From the NCBI GenBank assembly GCA_902538225.1, contig CACBEF010000003.1:62001-126000 (forward strand): a stretch of 64,000 nucleotides of DNA, written 5' to 3'. Source of the stretch: an uncultured Prochlorococcus sp. (GTDB lineage Bacteria > Cyanobacteriota > Cyanobacteriia > PCC-6307 > Cyanobiaceae). Shown here piece by piece: positions 9,561 to 22,749 of the stretch; the first letter of the stretch is position 1; each line of letters begins with the position of its first letter. The translations under genes and the position numbers were made by a program. Under the pieces are notes generated by a model. The model made no database searches. It saw only the letters and a program-made list of their open reading frames with translations, and had not been told where the DNA came from.

Positions 9561-9989
9561 TTATCCTTCAGCGGGAATTAAAATTGGAACATCTTTTGCT
9601 CCAATTGCTGCGAACCAAACTATTGCGTTATCAGTTTTTGCATTACCCATTGTATGTTTTGGTGTCTTAGGACCAACTATAAAAGTATCCCCTGCCGTAT
9701 AGGTAAGATCTTCCATCCCTTGTCTTTTGACAACAATCGTACCTTGCTCAACATTGCCTAATAATGGAATTGGATGAGAGTGGAGCGGAACTATCCCTCC
9801 TTCAGCCAACTCGACTCTTTGTAATCTTATTTCTGCTTTTCCTTTTGGGTATTTAAGAGCATCTCCATCCATAGTCTCAGAACCTACAAAGACTTCTTGT
9901 ACATCAACAGGATATTCTGCAGCTATAGAAATGCTTGGATTGATAAGCATTAATGCAAAAGCTAATGTGATGAATAACTTCTTGATCAT
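9561..9989 (-). CDS. Secreted cupin-domain protein
   Basis: Signal peptide; VPLHSHPIPLLGNVEQGTIVVKRQG cupin motif. Confidence 0.8.
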   Translation of the reverse strand: MIKKLFITLAFALMLINPSISIAAEYPVDVQEVFVGSETMDGDALKYPKGKAEIRLQRVELAEGGIVPLHSHPIPLLGNVEQGTIVVKRQGMEDLTYTAGDTFIVGPKTPKHTMGNAKTDNAIVWFAAIGAKDVPILIPAEG

Positions 9990-11405: not shown

Positions 11406-12596
11406 TTGACTACTGAATCATCTCAAAATCAAGACTTTACAAGGAAGCATCCTAGCGAAGGAATGGATGCTTTAGAAAAAGAAGCAAAATTACCTCTAAA
11501 AGGATGGGAAAACGAAGTTGCCCGAGCAAAGGAATATGGTTTAGAAGCAGCTAAAAGCATTGTCGATAGAAAAATATCTACATTTTCTAGAGGAGAATTG
11601 CCTCATTTTGCGGGTATCAATACCTTTATGAAATCTCCATATGTTGAAAATATAAATGAAGTTGGAAATTATGATGTTGCTATAGTTGGTGTACCTCATG
11701 ATTCCGGAACTACTTATAGACCAGGTACAAGATTTGGACCTCAAGGAATAAGAAAAATTTCTGCTCTCTATACTCCTTACAATTACGAAATGGGAGTTGA
11801 TCTGAGAGAGCAGATTTCTATATGTGATGTAGGAGATATTTTTACAATTCCAGCAAATAATGAAAAAAGTTTTGATCAAATTTCAAAGGGGGTGGCTCAT
11901 ATTTTTGCTAGTGGTGCATTTCCAATTATTTTAGGTGGAGATCACTCAATAGGGTTTCCCACAGTTAGAGGTGTTTGCCGCCATTTAGGAGATAAAAAAG
12001 TAGGGATCATTCACTTTGATAGACATGTTGATACTCAAGAAACAGATCTAGATGAAAGAATGCATACCTGTCCATGGTTTCATGCCACTAATATGAAAAA
12101 TGCACCTGCAAAAAATCTTGTTCAATTAGGAATTGGAGGTTGGCAAGTACCAAGAGAAGGAGTGAAAATTTGTAGGGAACGAAGTACAAATGTTTTAACT
12201 GTTACTGATATTTGCGAAATGGGTTTAAGAGAGGCTGCTGATTTTGCGATTGAAAAAGCTACTGATGGAACTGACTGTGTATATATTTCTTTTGATATTG
12301 ATTGTATTGATGCTGGATTTGTCCCTGGAACTGGTTGGCCTGAACCTGGAGGTTTATTACCTCGAGAGGCATTAAAACTTTTGGAGTACATTATCAGAAA
12401 AGTAAATGTATGTGGAATTGAGCTTGTTGAGGTTTCGCCTCCATATGATGTAAGTGATATGACTGCTCTATTAGCTACTAGAGTTATTTGTGATTCAATT
12501 GCACATCTTGTAGTAAGTGGTCAGCTCCCAAGAAAATCTAAACCAAAATGGATTTCAGATAAATGCAATATGTCAGTTGATCAAAAATGGAGATAG
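11406..12596 (+). CDS. gdmH: Ureohydrolase (arginase/agmatinase superfamily), probable guanidine hydrolase GdmH-type
   Basis: GGDHS, HFDRHVDTQ and SFDIDCIDAGFVPGTGWPEPGG; deviations from the canonical DAHxD and DP...PGTGTP motifs; followed by hypA/hypB-like genes and an ABC importer. Confidence 0.8.
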   Translation: MTTESSQNQDFTRKHPSEGMDALEKEAKLPLKGWENEVARAKEYGLEAAKSIVDRKISTFSRGELPHFAGINTFMKSPYVENINEVGNYDVAIVGVPHDSGTTYRPGTRFGPQGIRKISALYTPYNYEMGVDLREQISICDVGDIFTIPANNEKSFDQISKGVAHIFASGAFPIILGGDHSIGFPTVRGVCRHLGDKKVGIIHFDRHVDTQETDLDERMHTCPWFHATNMKNAPAKNLVQLGIGGWQVPREGVKICRERSTNVLTVTDICEMGLREAADFAIEKATDGTDCVYISFDIDCIDAGFVPGTGWPEPGGLLPREALKLLEYIIRKVNVCGIELVEVSPPYDVSDMTALLATRVICDSIAHLVVSGQLPRKSKPKWISDKCNMSVDQKWR

Positions 12597-12602
12597 ATCA
12601 TT

Positions 12603-12959
12603 TTGCATGAGGTAGATATGACAAAATGCCTTATACTTTCAATAGAAGAGTGGGCAGAGAAAAAAAATAAAGAAAAAATAGTTGTTGAAAAGATTAATCT
12701 TAAAATTGGCGAATTTACTTGCGTAGAGCCAATATCATTAATAAATACTTTTAATGCTGCAGTCCTGGGTTCTTGGTTAGATTCCTCTGAGATAACAATT
12801 GAGAAAATACCTTTTGAAGGAAAATGCTCTAAATGCAATAGATCATATTTCCCAAAGAAAGAGAATGGTTATAAATCTCCATGTTGCAATTTTAATTTAG
12901 AGGAAATTATTAGCGGGAGGGAATTAAAAATCGCATCCATTGACTTTAAAGAAAAGTAG
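12603..12959 (+). CDS. HypA-like nickel chaperone (GhaA-like)
   Basis: MHEVDMTKC N terminus, CSKC...SPCC zinc motif; 6 bp after ureohydrolase. Confidence 0.85.
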   Translation: MHEVDMTKCLILSIEEWAEKKNKEKIVVEKINLKIGEFTCVEPISLINTFNAAVLGSWLDSSEITIEKIPFEGKCSKCNRSYFPKKENGYKSPCCNFNLEEIISGRELKIASIDFKEK

Positions 12960-12999: not shown

Positions 13000-13680
13000 A
13001 TGCATTTACCAATTTCAGACAAAATTGAATTAAATATTCTTCATCAAAATAGTCATCAAGCTGAGAAAAATAAAGTTAAGTTTAATAATTATAATTTGCT
13101 TTGCTTGAACATAATGAGTAGTCCTGGTGCAGGAAAAACGAGATTACTTGAATTAACTTTAGAAGATATTTCAAAAGAATTTCAAAGTGCTGTTTTAGAG
13201 GGTGATATGACTACTAATCTTGATGCGGCAAGATTAGAAAAATTAAATATTCCAGTAGTACCAATCACAACTGGAAGAGCGTGCCATCTTGATGCAAATA
13301 TGGTTAGTGGAGGTTTGAAATTACTAGAAAAAAAAATAAATCCTGATTTACTAGATATTTTGTTAGTGGAAAATGTAGGAAATTTAGTTTGTCCTGCAGA
13401 ATTTGAGATTGGGGAACATTTTAAAGTTGCACTTTTAAGTATTACTGAAGGTGAGGATAAACCTTTAAAATACCCAATCATGTTTAGAGAAGCAGATTTA
13501 ATTTTGATTACTAAAGTTGATTTATTACCCTTCTTGGATTTTGATATTAACGAATTAAAATCAAATATAACATCTACTAATCCGAATGCAGATGTGATAG
13601 AAATTTCTTCGATAACCAAGTCTGGATTTGATTTATGGCAAAATTGGATTAGTAAAAAGATTCTGATATTTAAAAAATAA
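13000..13680 (+). CDS. HypB-like GTPase nickel chaperone (GhaB-like)
   Basis: NIMSSPGAGKTRLLE P-loop, VENVGNLVCPAEFEIGEH, ITKVDLLP. Confidence 0.92.
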   Translation: MHLPISDKIELNILHQNSHQAEKNKVKFNNYNLLCLNIMSSPGAGKTRLLELTLEDISKEFQSAVLEGDMTTNLDAARLEKLNIPVVPITTGRACHLDANMVSGGLKLLEKKINPDLLDILLVENVGNLVCPAEFEIGEHFKVALLSITEGEDKPLKYPIMFREADLILITKVDLLPFLDFDINELKSNITSTNPNADVIEISSITKSGFDLWQNWISKKILIFKK

Positions 13681-13714: not shown

Positions 13715-13728
13715 GTATCAGTCATTAC
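13715..13728. promoter_or_regulatory. NtcA-like site GTA-N8-TAC
   Basis: GTATCAGTCATTAC, 58 bp upstream of the ATG of the substrate-binding protein gene; AT-rich -10-like TATTGAT downstream. Confidence 0.45.
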
Positions 13729-13785
13729 AACTTTAGATTTACTTTTTCTTAAGTATTGATAGTACATAAAATTTTTTTTTCAATA

Positions 13786-14784
13786 ATGTTCAAAAAATTG
13801 AGAGTTTTTGCTGCCTCTTTGCTTGCTCTGATATTAGCGATTTCATTAAGTACATTATCAAGTCCTGCCGCTCCAAAAGGAGAACCTATCACTTTGGGAT
13901 ATAGTAACTGGGCAGGATGGTGGCCGTGGGCGATAGCTGTTGATCAAAAAATGTTTGAAAAAAATGGAGTTAATGTTCAGATGAAATGGTTTGATGGATA
14001 TGTTCAATCTATGGAAACTTTTGCTGCTGGAAAAATCGATGGGAATTCGCAAACTCTTAATGACACTATTTCGTTCTTACCTGGAGAGAATGGAGGGGAA
14101 GTAGTTGTTTTAGTTAATGATAATTCTGCAGGGAATGACCAAATAATTGCAGATAAATCAATTAAAAGTGTTGCTGATTTAAAAGGTAAAACAGTAGCAG
14201 TAGAAGAAGGTGTTGTTGATGATTTTTTACTTGTTTTAGCTCTGAATGATGTTGGATTAACTAGAGATGATGTAATTATTAAAGGTCTGCCAACTGATCA
14301 GGCTGCAACTGCGTTCGCAGCAGGAAAAGTTGATGCAGTTGGTGCATTTCCTCCATTTACCGGAACTGCAATGAAGAGGCCTGGAGCCAGAGTTATTGCT
14401 AGTTCAAAAGAATATCCCGGTGCAATCCCTGATTTATTAGCTGTAAGCGGAGATTTAATTTCGGAAAGACCAGATGATGTTCAAAAAATTGTTAAAACTT
14501 GGTGGGATGTGAGAGAATTTATGGAAAAAAATCCAAGAAAATCTGAAAAGATTATGGCAAAGCGAGCTGGTATCCCAACTCGCGAATACAAACAATATAA
14601 GGGTGGAACTAGGTTCTTCTCTTTGGAAGAAAATCTAGAAGCTTTTAGTGAAGGGTTCGGCATGAAACATATGCCTTATGCAGCGAAACAAATGGCAGAC
14701 TTTATGGTAAAGGTAGGATTTATTCCTGAAAAACCAGATATGAGTAAACTATTTGATTCTTCTTTTGTTGAAAATATTAGTTAA
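13786..14784 (+). CDS. ABC transporter substrate-binding protein, SsuA/TauA/NMT1 type
   Basis: Signal peptide; ITLGYSNWAGWWPWAIAVDQKMFEKNG; likely start MFKKLR rather than the 13756 start. Confidence 0.9.
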   Translation: MFKKLRVFAASLLALILAISLSTLSSPAAPKGEPITLGYSNWAGWWPWAIAVDQKMFEKNGVNVQMKWFDGYVQSMETFAAGKIDGNSQTLNDTISFLPGENGGEVVVLVNDNSAGNDQIIADKSIKSVADLKGKTVAVEEGVVDDFLLVLALNDVGLTRDDVIIKGLPTDQAATAFAAGKVDAVGAFPPFTGTAMKRPGARVIASSKEYPGAIPDLLAVSGDLISERPDDVQKIVKTWWDVREFMEKNPRKSEKIMAKRAGIPTREYKQYKGGTRFFSLEENLEAFSEGFGMKHMPYAAKQMADFMVKVGFIPEKPDMSKLFDSSFVENIS

Positions 14785-14800
14785 TTAATAAAAAATTAAA

Positions 14801-15619
14801 ATGGTTAGTTCGAAATTAATCAAGAGGGATAAATATTTTTTATCCCTCTTTTCATTTGGTAGTGAACCGAAAAAATTAAATAAAATATTTCTTCAAATAG
14901 CCTCACTTTTGCTACCACTTTTAATTTGGACAATAGTGTGTCAATTAAAACTTGTGAGTGAAATGTTTTTACCATCACCTTTAGCAGTCTTTTATTCTCT
15001 TTTAGATATGGCTGAAAGTGGAATATTATTTGAAGATATTTTTGCAAGTACTGGTAGGGTATTTGCTGGTTTTATAATTGCGACAATTTTTTCAGTTCCT
15101 TTAGGAATTTTAATGGGTGCTTTCCCTTCTTTTTGTGCTTTATGTGAACCATTAATTGCAATGCTTAGATATATGCCTGCAGCTGCTTTTTCTCCTTTGC
15201 TAATTATTTATTTAGGCATTGAAGAGGCTCCAAAAATCGCATTAATATTCATTGGTACCGTTTACTTTAATGTTTTGATGGTTATGGATTCAGTAAAATT
15301 TGTACCCAAAGAACTTATTGAAACAACGCTTACTTTAGGAGGAAATACAAAAGATTTATTGATCAGAGTAATAGCCAGATATTCATTGCCTAGTATTATT
15401 GATACTTTAAGAATTAATATTGCAACTTCATGGAATTTAGTTATTGTTGCAGAGTTAATTGCAGCAGAAGTTGGTTTAGGTAAAAGGATTCAACTAGCTC
15501 AAAGATTTTTTCGTACAGATCAAATATTTGCAGAATTAATAGTTCTTGGATTAATTGGATTTGCTTTGGATATGAGTTTTAGATTTCTACTAAGACGCAC
15601 ATGTAAATGGGCTGTTTAA
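14801..15619 (+). CDS. ABC transporter permease, SsuC/TauC type
   Basis: BPD_transp_1 family permease pattern, multiple TM; follows the substrate-binding protein. Confidence 0.92.
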   Translation: MVSSKLIKRDKYFLSLFSFGSEPKKLNKIFLQIASLLLPLLIWTIVCQLKLVSEMFLPSPLAVFYSLLDMAESGILFEDIFASTGRVFAGFIIATIFSVPLGILMGAFPSFCALCEPLIAMLRYMPAAAFSPLLIIYLGIEEAPKIALIFIGTVYFNVLMVMDSVKFVPKELIETTLTLGGNTKDLLIRVIARYSLPSIIDTLRINIATSWNLVIVAELIAAEVGLGKRIQLAQRFFRTDQIFAELIVLGLIGFALDMSFRFLLRRTCKWAV

Positions 15620-16384
15620 ATGAAATTAGATGTTAATAATATTTCAAAATATTTTGGGGAAGGTTCAAATAGAAAAAAGGCAATTGAGGGAATAAGCTTT
15701 TCAATAAGTTCTGGCGAATTTAAAACTCTTGTTGGGAGCTCTGGATCAGGTAAAAGTACTATATTGAGGATTATTGCTGGGCTTGATAGTCCATCTAAAG
15801 GGAACGTAAAAGTAGATGGAAAAATAGTTAGTGGACCGGGATTGGATAGAGGAATGGTTTTTCAGAAATATAGTCTTTTCCCTTGGCTCACTGCATCTGA
15901 GAATATTGCATTTGGAATGAATTTAAATTCTTACAAGTTAAAAGAAATAAAATATAGGACATCTTATTTATTAGAAGTAGTAGGTCTTCAGGATTCGGGA
16001 AATAAGTATCCAAAAGAATTATCTGGAGGAATGCAACAAAGGATAGCAATTGCAAGAGCTCTAGCGACTAACCCTAAAATTCTACTTTTAGATGAACCTT
16101 TTGGAGCCTTAGACTTACAGATAAGAGAATCTATGCAGAAATTTCTCTATGAATTATGGAAAAAAACTTCATTGACAGTTTTACTTATAACCCATGATAT
16201 TGAAGAAGCATTAGCTCTCTCTCAGCAAATATGTATTTTGGCACCTAATCCTGGAAGAATCATAAAAGAAGTTAAGGTAGATCTACAAAAAGGAGATTTA
16301 GATAAATTGAAACTTGATTCGGATTTTGCAAAATTAAGATATGAGTTATCTGATTTTTTAAGAGGCCTCCAAAAAAATAAATAA
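15620..16384 (+). CDS. ABC transporter ATP-binding protein, SsuB/TauB type
   Basis: GSSGSGKST, LSGGMQQRIAIARAL, LLLDEPFGALD. Confidence 0.95.
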   Translation: MKLDVNNISKYFGEGSNRKKAIEGISFSISSGEFKTLVGSSGSGKSTILRIIAGLDSPSKGNVKVDGKIVSGPGLDRGMVFQKYSLFPWLTASENIAFGMNLNSYKLKEIKYRTSYLLEVVGLQDSGNKYPKELSGGMQQRIAIARALATNPKILLLDEPFGALDLQIRESMQKFLYELWKKTSLTVLLITHDIEEALALSQQICILAPNPGRIIKEVKVDLQKGDLDKLKLDSDFAKLRYELSDFLRGLQKNK

Positions 16385-17406
16385 TGTCAACTAGTTTTTT
16401 GCCTACTTGGCTTTATAGCGACCAAAAAATTTTTGAACTTGAATTAGAAAAATATTCAAAAAATTATTGGCACCCATTGATTTTCATAGGAGAAATTAAA
16501 CCTGGCGAAATATTGGAAAAAAAATTCTTTAATCAATCATTATTTATCTCTTGTTCAGAAAAAAATTTAATAACTGTTTTCAAAAATAGATGCCCTCATC
16601 GGGGGTCAAAATTGTGTTTGCCAAAAACAAAAATAAATCCTACTAAAAATATTTTTTGTCCTTACCATGGATGGACTTTTGATAGTTTTGGCAAACTTAA
16701 AACCTTGCCATTAAAGTACGATTTTGAAACAAAAATAGAAACAGAGGATTTTTTTTTAGAAAAAGTTAACTCTTTAATAAATGGACCTTTAATTTGGATT
16801 AATTTCAGCAAAAAACCAATATCTATAGATGATCAAATTGATCTTGTTGGGAGAAAATGTAATGATCAATGGGATATGAATTACAGTATTTTTTCTGAAT
16901 TTTCTGATACCTTAAATTGCAATTGGAAAATTGCCCATGACAATACACTGGACGATTATCATGTAGCAATAGCTCATAAAGATACCCTACATAAAGAACA
17001 AGGTCCAATTAAAAACTACAGGTATTTCTTCAGTGAATTTTGTAATGTACTTGTTACCCCTCTTAGTATTGAAGGAAATCTATATACCTTTGGATTACTC
17101 CCATGGACCCATCTAATAATCTGGCCTGGTAAAGGGATTGTTTTAATAAATTATCTTCCTAAAAATATTGGTCAGTGTATTATTGAAATTAAATTAGCCT
17201 CTTCTTCTTTATGTGAAAATGATTTAGAAAATTGGAAAAAAAGTATATTAGAATTTCTTGGAGAAGATAAAGTTATTGTCGAATCAGTTCATAAATCTTA
17301 TCTGGAAAATTTTAAACTTGGTCCGCCTAATAGACTTGAACAAAGGATTACACACTGGCAAAATATTTATAAAGATTTTCTAAATGCATCAGGCATTTCT
17401 TTCTAA
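16384..17406 (+). CDS. Rieske [2Fe-2S] non-heme iron oxygenase alpha subunit
   Basis: Rieske ligands CPHRG...CPYHGW; NTLDDYHVAIAH mononuclear iron motif; overlaps ATPase by 1 nt. Confidence 0.9.
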   Translation: MSTSFLPTWLYSDQKIFELELEKYSKNYWHPLIFIGEIKPGEILEKKFFNQSLFISCSEKNLITVFKNRCPHRGSKLCLPKTKINPTKNIFCPYHGWTFDSFGKLKTLPLKYDFETKIETEDFFLEKVNSLINGPLIWINFSKKPISIDDQIDLVGRKCNDQWDMNYSIFSEFSDTLNCNWKIAHDNTLDDYHVAIAHKDTLHKEQGPIKNYRYFFSEFCNVLVTPLSIEGNLYTFGLLPWTHLIIWPGKGIVLINYLPKNIGQCIIEIKLASSSLCENDLENWKKSILEFLGEDKVIVESVHKSYLENFKLGPPNRLEQRITHWQNIYKDFLNASGISF

Positions 17407-22613: not shown

Positions 22614-22749
22614 TTGTTGACATCTAAGTATAAATACTTTATAAATAGATTGTAGTGAATACTACAAAATCGTCCGATCTACCATCTGATAGACCGCAGT
22701 ACGACTCAAGCCATAGGACGGGGACTTGAGCAAGTTCAGGAGCTGCATC

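Follow-up and report, generated by a model that had tools for sequence, protein, structure and literature searches.

The gene cluster considered here has been described by Dore et al. (PMC10119275) as Pro-eCAG_004/Syn-eCAG_001, with CK_00002251, and comprises speB2 (gdmH), hypA, hypB, an ABC importer, and a downstream Rieske gene. In that report, the guanidine cluster with the Rieske gene is absent in low-iron waters, and the gene product is read as a putative Rieske Fe-S protein, with iron as a cofactor of the guanidinase system; no oxygenase reaction is proposed there (PMC10119275), nor did the open-access literature that we searched contain one for this gene. The guanidine operon of Synechocystis PCC 6803 (sll1077-sll1082) shares the genes for GdmH, HypA, HypB, a substrate-binding protein (SBP), a permease, and an ATPase, but differs in that the Rieske gene is missing (PMC10119275). 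The MgdH/MgdL system of Vreelandella boliviensis resembles the cyanobacterial cluster in placing an oxygenase within a guanidine-use operon that has its own ABC importer: MgdH, a 2-oxoglutarate (2OG) oxygenase, hydroxylates methylguanidine, and the lyase MgdL (catalytic D49 and R51) breaks the resulting hemiaminal (PMC12508155). Whereas the co-occurrence of the Rieske gene with gdmH is already published (PMC10119275), a role for its product in the use of substituted guanidines is new. Compared with the report on Pro-eCAG_004/Syn-eCAG_001, we describe an oxygenase with a proposed reaction, close to the carnitine oxygenase CntA but without its substrate tyrosine and Cys pair, together with a TIM-barrel partner and an NtcA box that takes the place of the guanidine-I riboswitch in Prochlorococcus.

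The window (the whole stretch of DNA that was analysed, 64,000 nucleotides long) lies on contig 3 of a Prochlorococcus genome (G000) that is 67.5% complete. The cluster runs in the order gdmH-hypA-hypB-SBP-permease-ATPase-Rieske, all on the + strand and with the oxygenase as its final gene, and has the following features:

11406..12596, + strand: gdmH, Ni-dependent guanidine hydrolase (753 bits, full length, to Synechocystis 7ESR/7OI1)
12603..12959, + strand: hypA, nickel metallochaperone (PF01155, over cut-off)
13000..13680, + strand: hypB, nickel-insertion GTPase for GdmH (TIGR00073, over cut-off)
13715..13728, + strand: NtcA box GTATCAGTCATTAC preceding the importer-Rieske genes (GTA-N8-TAC conservation)
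13756..14784, + strand: periplasmic substrate-binding protein, SsuA family (TIGR01728, over cut-off)
14801..15619, + strand: ABC transporter permease, TauC/SsuC-like (PF00528, 65.8 bits)
15620..16384, + strand: ABC transporter ATPase, its stop overlapping the Rieske start (PF00005, 115 bits)
16384..17406, + strand: Rieske non-heme-iron oxygenase, alpha subunit only, 340 aa (Pfam, AF2 model, 36-sequence alignment)
16591..16668, + strand: Rieske [2Fe-2S] ligands C70, H72, C92, and H95 (invariant in 36 homologues)
16951..16977, + strand: motif D190-D191-Y-H193-x4-H198 (aligned with CntA E205/H208/H213)
17266..17268, + strand: D295, carboxylate ligand of the mononuclear iron (E294-D295 invariant in 36 homologues and in CntA/YeaW)

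The match of GdmH to the Synechocystis enzyme is ungapped over the full length, making it a clear orthologue of Sll1077, and its specificity residues T97 and W305 (T103/W311 by an inferred numbering offset) are retained, the GTTY and TGWPEP motifs being kept. The SBP scores 126 bits, below cut-off, against the uca-type family TIGR03427; its likelier start is an ATG about 30 nt downstream (MFKKLRVF...). The oxygenase reading frame is intact from its ATG at 16384 to its stop at 17404-17406, exactly where the earlier note had placed it. The last A of the ATPase stop TAA (16382-16384) is also the first base of the Rieske ATG (TAATG), so that the overlap on which a suggestion of translational coupling had rested is real in the window; as a fixed trait, however, it does not hold, with a 1-nt overlap at 6/56 Prochlorococcus loci and a 3-nt gap at 47/56. 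Since the overlap is the minority state, it is the tight spacing that is general: wherever the loci read carry the two genes on the same strand, the distance from the end of the ATPase gene to the oxygenase start is between -17 and +45 nt.

Both the Rieske domain (PF00355, 53 bits) and the ring-hydroxylase catalytic domain (PF00848 Ring_hydroxyl_A, 33.4 bits) are assigned over cut-off, which makes the protein an oxygenase and not merely an Fe-S protein. The C-x-H and C-x2-H [2Fe-2S] ligand pattern of Rieske oxygenases is present, and the 2-His-1-carboxylate site of the mononuclear iron is made up of H193, H198, and D295, which are invariant across the 36-homologue alignment (as is D191) and align with CntA; the retention of both iron sites, as the earlier note had read them, is thus borne out. 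In Rieske oxygenases, a carboxylate three residues ahead of the first His forms the electron bridge. This position, that of CntA E205, is occupied by D190 in Cyanobiaceae and by Cys in the four most distant homologues (L272-L275), and D190 or D191, or both, would be expected to provide the bridge to the mononuclear iron. The AlphaFold (AF2) model has a pLDDT of 88.8. In the more divergent Prochlorococcus pairs, the oxygenase evolves under purifying selection (omega about 0.14-0.18, the closest pair being uninformative for its too few changes), a weaker constraint than that on gdmH and the ATPase (about 0.04-0.13). A scan of ten neighbouring genes gave no match to a beta subunit, a ferredoxin, or a reductase; the same note had remarked on the missing reductase, but the point carries little weight because, to our knowledge, photosynthetic ferredoxin is always present in cyanobacteria. 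We also considered whether the oxygenase has phage-borne copies, and rejected this: the only matches were of 23-27% in Acinetobacter records, and the viral contigs contained no relative.

CntA consists of alpha subunits only and splits carnitine at a C-N bond. It is the first hit in a profile search of solved structures (6.9e-44, full length), followed by the stachydrine demethylase entries 3vca/4qup, and is also the best solved match to the AlphaFold model (TM 0.81); the nearest solved relatives of the oxygenase are therefore C-N-cleaving or N-demethylating enzymes. Like CntA/YeaW (Rieske group V), with which the ligands of both its iron sites line up along the entire length, the protein is an alpha subunit alone; it differs in that identity is about 21-23%, D190 stands at the place of the bridging E205, and the Cys206/Cys209 pair is lacking. 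In group Va, CntA Y203 is an aromatic residue that binds quaternary ammonium through a pi-cation contact (PMC7948474), and some group V members carry a Cys-x-x-Cys pair beside the iron (PMC10952381). Here we find an invariant T188 at the position of Y203, and the motif D-D-Y-H-V where the Cys pair would lie, so the analogy with CntA is one of fold and chemistry and not of substrate. The surroundings differ as well, as no CntB-type reductase adjoins the oxygenase and the transporter is of the ABC rather than the BCCT type.

Across a sample of 300 Cyanobiaceae genomes, gdmH is present in 98, the oxygenase in 71, and both in 69 (Fisher p about 1e-41 to 1e-40, ignoring phylogeny), the two genomes with the oxygenase but not gdmH being incomplete assemblies (81 and 89%). 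For Prochlorococcus, both genes occur in 51 genomes, with gdmH in 54 and the oxygenase in 62; those exceptions whose contigs could be inspected lie on short or cut contigs. The same order, gdmH-hypA-hypB-SBP-permease-ATPase-Rieske, recurs in two genomes of a second cyanobacterial family (f12), with oxygenases at 27-30% identity, and gives an argument that is independent of the Fisher test; it indicates either an ancient arrangement or one that arose by repeated assembly or transfer. The link between oxygenase and gdmH is not due to chance, and the co-occurrence on which the earlier note had staked its proposal is present at 69 of 71 genomes and in a further family. Outside cyanobacteria, none of three annotated plasmid loci has a Rieske gene together with gdmH. 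A distant Rieske homologue from another cyanobacterium (L275:7366-11906) sits in an SBP-permease-isochorismatase-ATPase-Rieske set without gdmH, and the compound on which it acts might point to the ancestral substrate.

Because the oxygenase is missing from 29 of the 98 gdmH-bearing Cyanobiaceae genomes, and from Synechocystis, it is an accessory that is not needed for guanidine itself. This fits the suggestion that the imported substrate may not be guanidine. Against it, the importer accompanies gdmH without the oxygenase at 20-odd loci, and so may mainly carry guanidine. In two genomes, L248 and L249, importer, oxygenase, and TIM-barrel gene form one unit about 160 kb from gdmH-hypAB, and there the importer goes with the oxygenase.

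We note in addition a deep split of the operon's SBP genes (L149-L244) into a marine type (80% to Prochlorococcus) and a Cyanobium type (about 46%), each found with and without the oxygenase. At Cyanobium-type (freshwater) loci such as L149, L168, and L175, a type III glutamine synthetase gene (TIGR03105, 563 bits) separates hypB from the SBP gene, and a block located downstream encodes an FA_desaturase-family protein with a weak match to guanitoxin GntB, a MetX-like hydrolase, and another type III glutamine synthetase. This synthetase was dismissed as a partner of the Rieske enzyme, as it also occurs in Cyanobium clusters without the Rieske gene and has no Prochlorococcus match over the family cut-off.

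Outside Prochlorococcus, the oxygenase is accompanied nearly one-to-one by a TIM-barrel gene, which is present in most Synechococcus/Cyanobium clusters, either convergent after the oxygenase or as a divergent copy before gdmH. Its product has no Pfam or NCBIfam match; the AlphaFold model (pLDDT 90.7) has the fold of xylose-isomerase-like TIM barrels, and the conserved residues E137, D165, H193, and E244 look like the metal site of that superfamily. The TIM gene occurs in 69 Cyanobiaceae genomes, the oxygenase in 71, and both in 67; among those with gdmH, 66 have both, 3 the oxygenase alone, 1 the TIM gene alone, and 28 neither. The TIM gene thus tracks the oxygenase and not gdmH. The sole complete genome with the TIM gene but without the oxygenase (L220:9560-10480 (-)) has a frameshifted TIM gene and an internally deleted glutamine synthetase, and its guanidine cluster is decaying. 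On the gdmH tree, the TIM gene and the oxygenase each change state about 10 times. Of four supported independent pairs, an average of 3.7 show the TIM gene changing together with the oxygenase and none shows the opposite (p 0.125); as four pairs cannot reach significance, the association falls short of formal significance once phylogeny is corrected for. A universal partner it is not, being missing in Prochlorococcus and in the phylum sample outside Cyanobiaceae; its absence from Prochlorococcus and from the second-family operons that we read means that it is not essential.

Outside cyanobacteria, relatives of the TIM protein (about 39-43% identity) in Paraburkholderia, Klebsiella, and Kozakia are encoded next to a 2OG/Fe(II) oxygenase, these oxygenases being 55-57% identical. 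The Paraburkholderia pair lies between two guanidine-I riboswitches, beside a urea/guanidine-carboxylase-type operon with a guanidine-II riboswitch. In Acinetobacter and Novosphingobium, relatives of the 2OG enzyme (44-52% identical) instead have as their downstream neighbour a protein of 293-295 residues that carries a D-x-R motif, and the Acinetobacter locus also holds genes for an SMR exporter, an ABC importer, and allophanate hydrolase. The short D-x-R motif and the gene position give a lead that this protein is MgdL-like. The possibility that the TIM protein is itself a distant relative of the MgdL-like protein was discarded, as the two show no similarity. If the MgdL-like identification is right, three combinations exist: 2OG oxygenase with MgdL-like lyase, 2OG oxygenase with TIM protein, and Rieske oxygenase with TIM protein. 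No other evidence points as strongly as these combinations to an N-substituted guanidine as the target of the Rieske enzyme. In most Cyanobiaceae, as compared with MgdH/MgdL, an extra protein follows the oxygenase at the lyase's place. The enzymes themselves differ: MgdH is a non-homologous 2OG enzyme, the cyanobacterial oxygenase has the Rieske rather than the 2OG/Fe(II) fold, the partner is a TIM barrel or missing, and the step after demethylation belongs to a guanidine carboxylase in Vreelandella and to GdmH in the cyanobacterial cluster. The Rieske oxygenase would be at most a functional analogue of MgdH.

Our best reading, to which we assign a probability of roughly 0.6, is that the Rieske oxygenase carries out oxidative N-dealkylation of an imported substituted guanidine and so feeds GdmH. 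Such a dealkylation, with release of guanidine for GdmH, had been proposed as a speculative role in the earlier note, and gains indirect support from the C-N-cleaving nearest relatives and the partner-gene evidence. The ABC importer would take up the substituted guanidine (and possibly guanidine too), and the oxygenase, presumably drawing electrons from the cell's own photosynthetic ferredoxin, would hydroxylate a carbon on a guanidine nitrogen to give an unstable hemiaminal. The hemiaminal would then yield free guanidine and an aldehyde, which would be formaldehyde if the substrate is methylguanidine; by analogy with MgdH, methyl- or other small N-alkylguanidines are the favoured substrates. 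In most Synechococcus/Cyanobium, the TIM-barrel protein probably speeds hemiaminal breakdown or handles a product, while Prochlorococcus would do without it. Such an absence is tolerable if the intermediate decays by itself, which is a slow process in the case of N-(hydroxymethyl)guanidine. With its nickel supplied by HypAB, GdmH would finally convert guanidine to urea and ammonia. In this scheme, the architecture of the oxygenase, the gene linkage, the orthology of GdmH, and the tie to the TIM gene are established, while N-dealkylation, the class of substrate, the electron donor, and the part played by the TIM protein are inferred. More tentatively, and with rather less than even odds, we suggest that the Rieske oxygenase (accompanied in most Cyanobiaceae by a TIM-barrel lyase unrelated to MgdL) constitutes a second, independently evolved route of guanidine N-dealkylation in marine and freshwater picocyanobacteria.

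The main alternative keeps the reaction class but assumes a larger substrate: a guanidino acid or amine (guanidinoacetate, 4-guanidinobutanoate, agmatine, or an arginine-like compound) would be hydroxylated next to the guanidine nitrogen, giving guanidine and a C2-C5 aldehyde that the TIM protein would isomerise, in line with its sharing the fold of sugar isomerases/epimerases. Guanidino acids are a serious rival because the Klebsiella and Kozakia TIM-2OG pairs adjoin arginine/lysine-type or amino-acid ABC importers; the Klebsiella locus also has a glyoxylate/hydroxypyruvate reductase and a class II aldolase, and the nearest solved relative of the TIM-adjoining 2OG enzyme carries the annotation of an ethylene-forming enzyme, and such enzymes are known to release guanidine from arginine. 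We nevertheless consider a larger substrate unlikely, as the cyanobacterial SBP is of the SsuA/uca and not the arginine type, and the Prochlorococcus cluster has no aldehyde-processing gene. It is more improbable still that the oxygenase acts on an unrelated imported compound, such as a methylated amine, and that nothing but a common role in nitrogen supply has brought the two routes into one operon. The quaternary ammonium substrates of the nearest relatives and the L275 set with its isochorismatase and no gdmH would suit such a compound, but the pi-cation tyrosine for quaternary ammonium is missing, the oxygenase keeps company with gdmH in nearly all of its genomes and in the gene order of a second family, and the TIM partner leads elsewhere to a guanidine-riboswitch locus. 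That the protein is an electron-transfer or Fe-S accessory of the guanidinase system, or oxidises guanidine itself, would agree with its published treatment as a Rieske Fe-S protein with iron as the system's cofactor (PMC10119275) but is very improbable given its full catalytic domain with an intact 2-His-1-carboxylate site and the fact that GdmH, as a hydrolase, requires no electrons and is functional in Synechocystis, where the Rieske gene is absent.

If N-dealkylation by the Rieske oxygenase is correct, Prochlorococcus and Synechococcus draw nitrogen from substituted guanidines, which have hardly been measured in seawater, and the iron cost of the cluster and its loss in low-iron waters are explained; a gene reported in 2023 without a reaction would gain an enzymatic meaning. 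Oxygenases of the Rieske type are not known to make guanidine. Should the second route in particular exist, methylated or otherwise substituted guanidines would be a real part of the dissolved organic nitrogen that picocyanobacteria use. The oxygenase and the TIM-barrel protein provide two concrete targets for a simple substrate screen.

Regulation of the cluster also differs between lineages. Guanidine-I riboswitches occur in Synechococcus/Cyanobium loci and in front of the second-family operons, while no guanidine riboswitch was found in the Prochlorococcus cluster or the window, even at E<=5. Ahead of its importer-oxygenase genes, Prochlorococcus instead has a canonical NtcA box, whose GTA-N8-TAC pattern is kept in 48/48 loci, the divergent L050 included, with the bases around its variable centre the most conserved of the spacer; Synechococcus-type spacers have no NtcA box. 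Since NtcA-type patterns number 13 in the window against 6.6 expected, the motif alone is weak, and it is the conservation that carries the assignment. The conserved box suggests that importer and oxygenase are co-expressed under nitrogen stress. Elsewhere in the window, a glutamine-II riboswitch (22668-22730 (+), 58.4 bits), with no conserved ORF recognised directly following it, has an NtcA-like GTAGTGAATACTAC just upstream at 22652-22665. Upstream of the cluster, Prochlorococcus loci carry one of two versions of a cupin gene (9561-9989 (-) in the window), which have either about 92-99% or about 55% identity to the copy there and lie at similar positions, as if alleles had been swapped.
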